Below are positions 5,967 through 19,387 of a DNA stretch of 64,000 bases, one piece after another; within the stretch, counting starts at the first letter, position 1, and every line of letters starts with the position of its first letter. Under the pieces are notes generated by a model that had not been told where the DNA came from, ran no database searches, and saw only the letters and a list, made by a program, of their open reading frames with translations. This stretch comes from Metallosphaera tengchongensis. Its GTDB lineage: Archaea > Thermoproteota > Thermoprotei_A > Sulfolobales > Sulfolobaceae. The stretch is from assembly GCF_013343295.1 (NCBI RefSeq), contig NZ_CP049074.1, positions 1,593,501-1,657,500 on the forward strand, in the 5' to 3' direction. Made by a program: the position numbers and the translations under genes.

Positions 5967-6689
5967 TTAAAGTGCTTTAGCGACTTTCTTGGTTGCCTCA
6001 GCTATGTCTCTCTCTTGCTCAGCGTATGCGCATAGCATCGCTTCTACGTCCATATGTCCCTCTGCCTTGGCTTTCATTGCAACGTTGTTGTACTCGCTTA
6101 CGTGCTCTTCTGCCTCCTCTCTGGTGAACTCGTTGAGCATCGCGGAGACTTTCTTGGTTGCCTCAGCTATGTCTCTCTCTTGCTCAGCGTATGCGCATAG
6201 CATCGCTTCTACGTCCATATGTCCCTCTGCCTTGGCTTTCATTGCAACGTTGTTGTACTCGCTTACGTGCTCTTCTGCCTCCTCTCTGGTGAACTCGTTG
6301 AGCATCGCGGAGACTTTCTTGGTTGCCTCAGCTATGTCTCTCTCTTGCTCAGCGTATGCGCATAGCATCGCTTCTACGTCCATATGTCCCTCTGCCTTGG
6401 CTTTCATTGCAACGTTGTTGTACTCGCTTACGTGCTCTTCTGCCTCCTCTCTGGTGAACTCGTTGAGCATCGAGCTGGAACCTGCATGAGTGTAAAGCTT
6501 CTCAAATATTCCTCTAGCATGTCCATACTCTACTTTAGCTTTCTCCCTGAGTGTCTTGGCCTCCTCCTTCTTTCCAGCTGCCTCTAGCTTGTCAGCTAGG
6601 AAGCTGAGGAGCATGTAGTCCTCAGCATTAGCCTTAAACAATTCCTTTAAACCCATTTCCGTCTCTTTTCCCAGAACCATTCGGATCAC
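5967..6689 (-). CDS. Rubrerythrin/ferritin-like protein with triplicated C-terminal helix pair
   Basis: 240 residues. Residues 1-75 give one helical pair with an ExxH element (EYGHA), as in the ferritin-like superfamily (rubrerythrin, sulerythrin). The rest is a 55-residue helix pair repeated almost three times with identical sequence. It is encoded by three perfect 165-bp DNA repeats. A single-copy version would be about 130 residues, a normal length for a minimal rubrerythrin-like four-helix bundle. In each copy the usual second ExxH reads QERD, so metal ligands are partly changed. No rubredoxin domain is present. GTG 6689, ATG 6680 and ATG 6656 are possible starts. A TATA box at about 6711-6721 predicts transcription from about 6689. 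The ferritin-like assignment is inference from motif spacing. Confidence 0.6.
   Translation of the reverse strand: MIRMVLGKETEMGLKELFKANAEDYMLLSFLADKLEAAGKKEEAKTLREKAKVEYGHARGIFEKLYTHAGSSSMLNEFTREEAEEHVSEYNNVAMKAKAEGHMDVEAMLCAYAEQERDIAEATKKVSAMLNEFTREEAEEHVSEYNNVAMKAKAEGHMDVEAMLCAYAEQERDIAEATKKVSAMLNEFTREEAEEHVSEYNNVAMKAKAEGHMDVEAMLCAYAEQERDIAEATKKVAKAL
5982..6472. repeat. Perfect 165-bp tandem repeat, 2.98 copies
   Basis: Identity runs from 5982 to 6472 with a period of exactly 165 bp (55 codons). I see no mismatch between copies, including third codon positions. This means a very recent duplication or active homogenisation. The plus-strand open frame through it is an antisense shadow. Confidence 0.95.
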
Positions 6690-6843
6690 TATTATTACGT
6701 ATTAACACAAGTTAATAAACTTTGATTATCGTCATTATAATACATTTACCAAAAAATCAGAAGTGTATTTCAAAATAGGTTATTGGTTCCTGCATAAAGA
6801 AAAGTAGTGATAATGTTAAAAAGTTATTGTACTATTTAAGCTT

Positions 6844-6898
6844 AGATGATGAGTGACTCCAATTTTGACATGATGATTATGTAACTCGAATCTGAGAA
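6844..6898 (+). ncRNA. C/D box sRNA, predicted 16S rRNA 2'-O-methylation guide
   Basis: Complete C/D architecture: C box ATGATGA 6846-6852, 12-nt guide 6853-6864, D' box TTGA 6865-6868, short spacer, C' box ATGATGA 6870-6876, 15-nt guide 6877-6891, D box CTGA 6892-6895. A TATA-like GTTAAAAA near 6815-6822 places the transcript start at about 6844. The D' guide GTGACTCCAATT is complementary over 11 nt to the conserved archaeal 16S stretch AATTGGAGTCA, the site of the archaeal 958R primer. By the D+5 rule it would methylate the first G after AAUU (about position 962, E. coli numbering). The target of the second guide was not recognised. Confidence 0.75.
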
Positions 6899-6928
6899 GA
6901 TTTTAATCTGGGTTGCAAAAAGCTAAAC

Positions 6929-8431
6929 ATGATAACAACCTCTAAAATGAGGGCACTGGAGATAAACTCAGAGGCCTTTGGAGTTTCAACTCTCCAACTA
7001 ATGGAAAACGCTGGTAGGTCTGTGGCGGATGAGATAGAGAGAGAGGTTGAGGTGAAGAACTCTAAGGTTGTGATATTCGTAGGTCACGGAGGTAAGGGCG
7101 GGGACGGCTTAGTTGCAGGTAGGCATCTATCGGAAAGGGGAGCTAAAGTCGAGATTGTCCTTCTTGGCGAGATCAAACATAAGGACAGCGTTACTAACCT
7201 TCAGTCCATACTAGATATGGATTTCTCCGTATCCTTGAGGAACTTCGAGGAAGTTGAAGGGTTAGATCTAAACGGGGATGTCCTTGTGGACGCTATGCTT
7301 GGGACTGGGGTTAGGGGCAAGATCAGGGAGCCGTTTAAGAGTGCCATTAAGCTTTTCAACCAACTTAGGGGTTTTAAGGTGTCAATTGACGTTCCTTCTG
7401 GGCTTGATCCTGATACTGGGAAGGACTTGGGCGAGTCCGTGAAACCCGATCTCGTAGTCACATTCCACGATATGAAACAGGGTCTCTTGCGGACTGACTT
7501 TAAGGTAGTTGTCAAAAGGATAGGCATCCCCCCTGAAGCTTCCCTTTACGCTGGACCAGGGGATCTCATGGTGAATTTGAAGCCAAGAGAAATGAAAAGT
7601 AAGAAGGGAATTGGGGGGAGGGTCCTCGTTGTGGGAGGTAGTGAGACTTTCTCTGGAGCCCCCACACTATCAGCGCTGTCTAGTCTAAGGACAGGGGCTG
7701 ACTTAGTTTACGTAGCTTCCCCAGAGAGGACGGCTGAGATAATATCATCTTACTCACCTGATTTAATTACAATAAAACTAGAGGGAAGGAATTTTAATGA
7801 GAAAAACGTCGAGCAGTTGACCCAGTGGGTCGAGAAGGCAAACGTGGTTGTATTTGGTCCTGGCCTAGGCTTAAGCGAGGACGCTGTAAGGGCCACGCCT
7901 ACTTTCGTTGAACACGTGTTGAAAATGGGTAAACCATTGGTACTTGACGCTGACGGGTTAAAGATTATGAAGGGCTCCAAGCTCTCAAGGAACGTGGTAA
8001 TTACTCCACACCCTGGGGAGTTCAAGATATATTTCGGGACTGAGCCTTCAGCTAGTGAAAGGGAAAGGATAGAACAAGTTATGGACAAAGCTAGGGAATG
8101 TAATTGTGTGGTACTTCTCAAAGGTTACTTGGACGTAATTAGCGACGGCACCAGTTTCAAGCTGAATAAGGCTGGGAATCCAGGGATGACAGCAGGAGGA
8201 ACTGGAGATACACTCACCGGGATCGTTGCGACTTTCGTGGCACAAGGCATCGACCCGTTCACCTCTGCCTACATGGGGGCTTTAGTTAACAGCTTAGCTG
8301 GTACCTTAGCTTACTCGGAATTAGGTCCTCACATTACTGCATCAGACATAGTGCAGAAAATCCCCGCGGTTCTTTCCAATCCCATCGAGGCTTTCAAAAA
8401 GAGGGTGTACAAAAGGGTCATAACTTCTTGA
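6929..8431 (+). CDS. nnr: Bifunctional NAD(P)H-hydrate epimerase / ADP- or ATP-dependent dehydratase
   Basis: 500 residues made of two fused domains. The N-terminal YjeF epimerase has the loop GHGGKGGDG (about residues 52-60). The C-terminal ribokinase-like dehydratase has GGTGDTLTG and the Asp-rich DADGLK region. Together they repair hydrated, inactive NAD(P)HX, a form of heat damage. Start ATG 6929 sits about 26 nt after a TATA-like AGATTTTAAT, so the mRNA is probably leaderless. The 3' end overlaps the convergent peroxiredoxin gene by 14 bp. Confidence 0.95.
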   Translation: MITTSKMRALEINSEAFGVSTLQLMENAGRSVADEIEREVEVKNSKVVIFVGHGGKGGDGLVAGRHLSERGAKVEIVLLGEIKHKDSVTNLQSILDMDFSVSLRNFEEVEGLDLNGDVLVDAMLGTGVRGKIREPFKSAIKLFNQLRGFKVSIDVPSGLDPDTGKDLGESVKPDLVVTFHDMKQGLLRTDFKVVVKRIGIPPEASLYAGPGDLMVNLKPREMKSKKGIGGRVLVVGGSETFSGAPTLSALSSLRTGADLVYVASPERTAEIISSYSPDLITIKLEGRNFNEKNVEQLTQWVEKANVVVFGPGLGLSEDAVRATPTFVEHVLKMGKPLVLDADGLKIMKGSKLSRNVVITPHPGEFKIYFGTEPSASERERIEQVMDKARECNCVVLLKGYLDVISDGTSFKLNKAGNPGMTAGGTGDTLTGIVATFVAQGIDPFTSAYMGALVNSLAGTLAYSELGPHITASDIVQKIPAVLSNPIEAFKKRVYKRVITS

Positions 8432-19239: not shown

Positions 19240-19292
19240 CTCTTTATCCGGAGCACAGAATGTTATTTAACCATTAAAAATACCTTTCAAGT

Positions 19293-19346
19293 GCATGTGA
19301 TGAACTTTACAAGGTCTGACAAGTGAGGATAATGCTAGGCTGAAAC
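19293..19346 (+). ncRNA. C/D box sRNA
   Basis: C box GTGATGA 19297-19303, 12-nt guide 19304-19315, D' CTGA 19316-19319, spacer CAA, C' GTGAGGA (one mismatch) 19323-19329, 10-nt guide 19330-19339, D CTGA 19340-19343. A TATA-like TTATTTAACC at about 19263-19272 predicts a start near 19293. The guides would pair with ACCUUGUAAAGU and CCUAGCAUUA; I did not recognise their targets. It lies in the gap between two genes, where no protein is encoded. Confidence 0.7.
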
Positions 19347-19387
19347 TTTATTTAGATTTATTATCAGCTTTTTCTATTAAATAACGT

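Follow-up and report, generated by a model that had tools for sequence, protein, structure and literature searches.

A conserved C/D box sRNA gene upstream of nnr in Metallosphaera tengchongensis with predicted guides for two neighbouring sites of 16S rRNA

The C/D box sRNAs of Sulfolobus acidocaldarius, reportedly described by Omer et al. in 2000, are of the same class, and come from the same family of organisms, as the RNA considered here. Dennis et al. 2015 (PMC4644070) cover 61 S. acidocaldarius C/D box sRNAs and list no Sulfolobus sRNA among their bridging guides. The same paper gives the targets of sR15 of Nanoarchaeum equitans as G930 and G1217/1218 (alignment numbering), and suggests a role for this sRNA as a folding chaperone. 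In Rfam, the closest described RNA is sR46 (RF01130); expression of an sR46 is documented for Thermococcus kodakarensis (PMC9014305). The locus that we describe is a small RNA gene that protein gene callers pass over, and the support for it is good.

The gene lies on the plus strand of the window (the whole 64-kb stretch of the M. tengchongensis genome that was analysed), in a 239-nt gap (6690–6928) between a minus-strand ORF (5967–6689) and nnr (YjeF_N + Carb_kinase), which starts with ATG at 6929. A preliminary description of this DNA had placed a C/D box sRNA in the gap upstream of nnr, with perfect C and C' boxes, CTGA as the D box and TTGA as the D' box, and direct reading agrees on all of these points. 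The C box ATGATGA (6846–6852) is followed by the 12-nt D' guide spacer GTGACTCCAATT (6853–6864), the D' box TTGA (6865–6868), the C' box ATGATGA (6870–6876), a 15-nt spacer (6877–6891) whose last 12 nt are the D guide TGTAACTCGAAT (6880–6891), and the D box CTGA (6892–6895). Boxes, homologs and an alignment to Rfam sR46 over 6842–6897 put the mature RNA at approximately 6842–6897. The layout is the archaeal one, with terminal C (RUGAUGA) and D (CUGA) boxes, internal C' and D' boxes and spacers of about 12 nt, the D' box being UUGA. The k-turn rule, by which nucleotide 6 of the C box pairs with nucleotide 1 of the D box, yields a G-C pair at C/D; the corresponding pair at C'/D' is G-U in the host and G-C in relatives that have CTGA as their D' box. 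The host genome also encodes fibrillarin (PF01269, E 1.4e-100). Between the two guides, GTGACTCCAAT (6853–6863) and GTAACTCGAAT (6881–6891) are identical at 9/11 positions, a resemblance that may reflect an internal duplication.

Elsewhere in the window, the intergenic gap 19240–19387 holds a second C/D-like candidate (19297–19343, plus strand) that reads GTGATGA-ACTTTACAAGGT-CTGA ... GATAATGCTAGG-CTGA; it has no convincing target in 16S or 23S rRNA, and a search of 24 genomes turned up no relative of it at the DNA level. The minus-strand ORF at 5967–6689 contains three perfect 165-bp tandem repeats (5982–6472, 100% identical), encoding three identical 55-aa units, which suggests a very recent duplication. 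Its matches in Pfam are weak and inconsistent.

A DNA search found the sRNA locus in 5/5 other genomes of the genus and in a few others. A sequence-only model, built from ten of the genomes found in this way and then run on 31 genomes of the family, detects a homolog in 28, with no match in G011, G013 and G021. Among these 28 homologs TGATGA of the C box is unchanged and the D box is always kept, while the D' box is CTGA in many relatives; averaged over alignment columns, identity is 1.00 within TGATGA and ∼0.93 within each of the guide cores, but falls to 0.49 in the upstream and 0.47 in the downstream flank. The gene directly downstream is nnr in 25 of the 28 genomes. The three genomes of genus g3 have the sRNA elsewhere, after the 3' end of another gene, as read from the sequence. 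Given guide cores that are kept where the flanks are not, and the g3 genomes in which the sRNA is away from nnr, we conclude that it is selected in its own right and not merely as a leader of nnr. In other families of the same order, the C box and the D' guide are kept while the D guide differs: several families have one resembling CTCAACCCTTA, another family one resembling CTTTCGCCCCTA, and G028 has GGACGACGGCT. It is a clear example of a guide that an archaeal order retains while the partner guide is exchanged. At two loci of family f7 (L149 and L150), the D guide CTTTCGCCCCTA, which stands beside the kept D' guide, appears on inspection to be a complement of 16S TAGGGGCGAAA (∼E. coli 690).

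The preliminary description had also claimed an 11-nt complementarity between the D' guide and 16S rRNA and, from the D+5 rule, a target G at about position 962, and both claims survive comparison with rRNA. Targets were read from same-genus and same-family rRNA rather than from the host's own. The same-genus genome G004 offers the first 1086 nt of its 16S gene, which covers the D' target and not the D target; it carries AATTGGAGTCAA at 920–931 of the gene, and positions +1 to +11 of the host D' guide pair with its AATTGGAGTCA in an unbroken run of 11 Watson-Crick pairs, above a threshold of at least nine such pairs including +5. Position +5 (C6860) faces G924 of this 16S, which aligns to E. 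coli 962 in helix 31; in E. coli numbering the duplex covers 958–968, and its predicted energy is -15.2 kcal/mol. The chance that a shuffled guide reaches the D' score anywhere in 16S and 23S is P ∼0.0017. When each genome's own guide was set against its own rRNA, 16S 962 came out as the top site anywhere in 16S or 23S in 7/7 genomes, and in a joint permutation test on the D' guide columns of six genomes 0/400 permutations reached the observed score. All 28 guides keep pairing at +3 to +9 and at +11, where C/T at +6 opposite G and A/G at +4 opposite U are the sole variants. In 11 genomes +10 is an A that faces C, and +12 is unpaired, which is in keeping with a duplex of ∼10 pairs adjoining the D' box. 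On these comparisons we consider 16S G962 very likely to be the target of the D' guide. The tip of helix 31 in S. solfataricus carries the hypermodified m1acp3-pseudouridine 930, equivalent to E. coli 966 (PMC11698992), four nucleotides 3' of the predicted target. By the count of that source the small-subunit rRNA has 25 modifications, and its main text names neither position 926 nor the equivalent of 1231.

While the earlier account of targets was right for the D' guide, it overlooked that the D guide is conserved and has a probable second target in 16S. The D guide core GTAAC(T/C)CG is invariant among the 28 homologs apart from its T/C position, which is +6 and lies opposite G in 16S. With G-U allowed, +4 to +11 are paired with 16S ACGCGGGTTACA in 28/28 guides, and the guides of genus g6 pair additionally at +2 and +3; the 16S site was read in six genomes' own 16S and is conserved among these. 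The host guide pairs at +4 to +12 with 16S CGGGTTACA, forming 9 bp including one G-U, with mismatches at +2 and +3 and a predicted energy of -11.4 kcal/mol. Its +5 (C6887) faces the nucleotide aligned to E. coli G1231, and the duplex covers 1230–1238. Helix 30 of E. coli 16S we take to be 946–955/1225–1235, which places G1231 on its 3' strand. With the genomes taken together, 16S 1231 ranks first among the aligned sites for the D guide, and 1/400 permuted guide sets reach its score; in single genomes the significance of this target is marginal at best (P 0.02–0.41), and the host D guide alone falls short of nine Watson-Crick pairs. Dennis et al. (PMC4644070) work with nine consecutive Watson-Crick pairs, a rule that they relax for double guides with linked targets. 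Since the D guide is also conserved and fits best to 16S G1231 in helix 30, the sRNA looks like a double guide, and we regard G1231 as a reasonably probable target of the D guide.

Might the D guide instead act mainly on GGTAGAGTTAC of 23S rRNA (helix 38 region), on a tRNA or on some other RNA, so that the sRNA would serve 16S through one guide only, the other being unrelated? In favour of this is G016, where the genome's own D guide pairs over 8 bp (+5 to +12) with 23S GGTAGAGTTACT and outscores 16S 1231. Yet the D guide stays GTAACTCG or GTAACCCG in genomes whose 23S has GAGAGAC or GAGTGAC at the place of GGTAGAGTTAC; since the guide does not follow these changes, we dropped the 23S site as its target. 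Nor did a scan of 44 host tRNA genes yield a fit within a tRNA. The sequence AATTGGACTCAAC at G000:530991, which lies in no RNA family, was dropped. With 16S 1231 winning jointly, we think it unlikely that the D guide serves mainly one of these other RNAs. The D' guide, for its part, might mainly or additionally target 23S at E. coli ∼653 (CTGAAGTCAC/CTGGAGTCAC). This site forms 9 Watson-Crick pairs with the guide in G016 and G028, and D' +6 is T where 23S has A (CTGAAGTCAC; G007, G016 and G042) and C where it has G (CTGGAGTCAC; G010 and G028). However, the 23S pairing fails in G012 and G018, whereas the 16S site fits in 7/7 genomes, and a T at +6 still pairs with 16S as G-U; a 23S target for the D' guide therefore seems to us improbable, and 16S G962 remains the preferred reading. 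In some genera (loci L028, L024, L029, L026 and L025), D' +6 thus seems to covary with 23S ∼653 as it would with a second target, a pattern that G012 and G018 break.

Two further explanations concern whether the locus encodes a free guide RNA at all. One could see in it a chance assembly of short AT-rich motifs, each box alone being short and common. A search of both strands of the window for the strict four-box C/D architecture returned a single match (6846–6895, plus strand), though, and 100 dinucleotide-shuffled windows returned none (0.0 per window); together with the homologs in 28/31 family genomes this leaves chance a negligible probability, and conservation already refutes it. Alternatively, the k-turns could belong to the leader of nnr, with L7Ae or an RNP regulating that gene, a view favoured by the position of the sRNA upstream of nnr in 25/28 genomes. 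It is at odds with genus g3, where the sRNA sits at the 3' end of another gene, and with the conservation of both guide cores, as a regulatory k-turn does not need guides. A TATA-like element after the D box (TTTTAA, 6902–6907), from its spacing probably the TATA of a leaderless nnr, also speaks against it, and we hold the leader explanation to be very unlikely. We are as good as certain that the locus encodes an archaeal C/D box sRNA, the class first assigned to it, which is upheld by the architecture, by the homologs and by the presence of the sR46 guide in Rfam.

A TATA-like element at correct spacing had also been claimed for the sRNA itself. The element TTAAAAAG (6816–6823), a possible promoter ∼25 nt upstream of the expected 5' end, does fit a start near 6842–6844 and is plausible as such; the better conserved TATTTAAG (6833–6840), 6–13 nt upstream of the C box, is too close for canonical use. 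A TATTTAA-like element is kept 6–13 nt before the C box in genera g1, g4, g6 and g10, at the same place as 6833–6840. Small RNAs of S. acidocaldarius have TATA motifs 24–30 bp upstream of their starts (PMC12817955). As many archaeal C/D sRNAs lack a promoter of their own (PMC7994747), the TATA evidence neither supports nor weakens the case for the sRNA much.

Our conclusion from these comparisons is that the sRNA most likely serves to guide ribose methylation near the P site of the small subunit, at one site or at two that are neighbours. As we picture it, a double-guide C/D box sRNA of ∼55 nt would be expressed from the locus and, through its C/D and C'/D' motifs, would bind L7Ae, Nop5 and fibrillarin. 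The D' guide would pair with 16S 958–968 and lead to 2'-O-methylation of G962. The D guide would pair with 1230–1238, in the 3' strand of helix 30, and 2'-O-methylation of G1231 would probably follow, so that two methylation sites are predicted near the ribosomal P site. Because helix 30 carries helix 31, both guides would act on one structural neighbourhood, and as helix 31 springs from helix 30 a single RNP could hold both segments during assembly, a role already proposed for sR15 of N. equitans. We have high confidence in the predicted double guide, with G962 addressed through D' and probably G1231 through D, and with one RNP that could hold both. A bridging guide would have two targets distant in sequence and close in secondary structure; of the two sites proposed here, the D' site is firm (0/400 in the joint permutation), while the D site has joint support (1/400) and is weak in single genomes (P 0.02–0.41). 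That such bridging of helices 30 and 31 matters in assembly we propose only tentatively. Equally speculative is a wider scheme in which an order-wide D' guide to G962 would, in one family, be firmly tied to a D guide directed at the helix 30 3' strand. One RNP would then clamp the junction of helices 30 and 31, next to the P site, while the 30S subunit is being assembled; in other families the D' guide would be coupled to other D guides.

Among known RNAs, an Rfam scan of the locus gave no family above its own cut-off. At a relaxed threshold sR46 aligns over its whole model with 29.5 bits (E 7.8e-6), below its gathering cut-off of 50 bits, and the locus is the best sR46 match in the host genome. 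The two RNAs share a common layout, with D' guides aUGAaUCCAAUG-CUGA in sR46 and GUGACUCCAAUU-UUGA here; in the paired part the sR46 guide is that of the locus with one substitution, A for C at +8, while the unpaired ends differ too and the D guides are unrelated. The change at +8 matches that between the presumed euryarchaeal form AATTGGATTCAAC and the crenarchaeal AATTGGAGTCAAC; the archaeal primer 958R has a degenerate base that allows for AATTGGATTCAAC as well. As sR46 carries the guide with one substitution, neither the D' guide nor its site is new among archaea, and the novelty implied in the preliminary description was overrated. In the literature searched, the guide sequence returned only unrelated primers and matched no named Sulfolobus sRNA; a homolog probably sits in the published S. 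acidocaldarius C/D set. The likeness to sR15 of N. equitans is of another kind. That RNA is a double guide whose targets lie one on each strand of 16S helix 30 (Dennis et al., PMC4644070); judging from the other conversions in that paper, its target 1218 appears to be E. coli ∼1231. Its D' target lies on the 5' strand of helix 30 and that of our locus in helix 31; the likeness proposed here is one of targets. The pairing of a helix 30 with a helix 31 site at our locus is relevant to the proposed role of C/D sRNAs as chaperones of rRNA folding.
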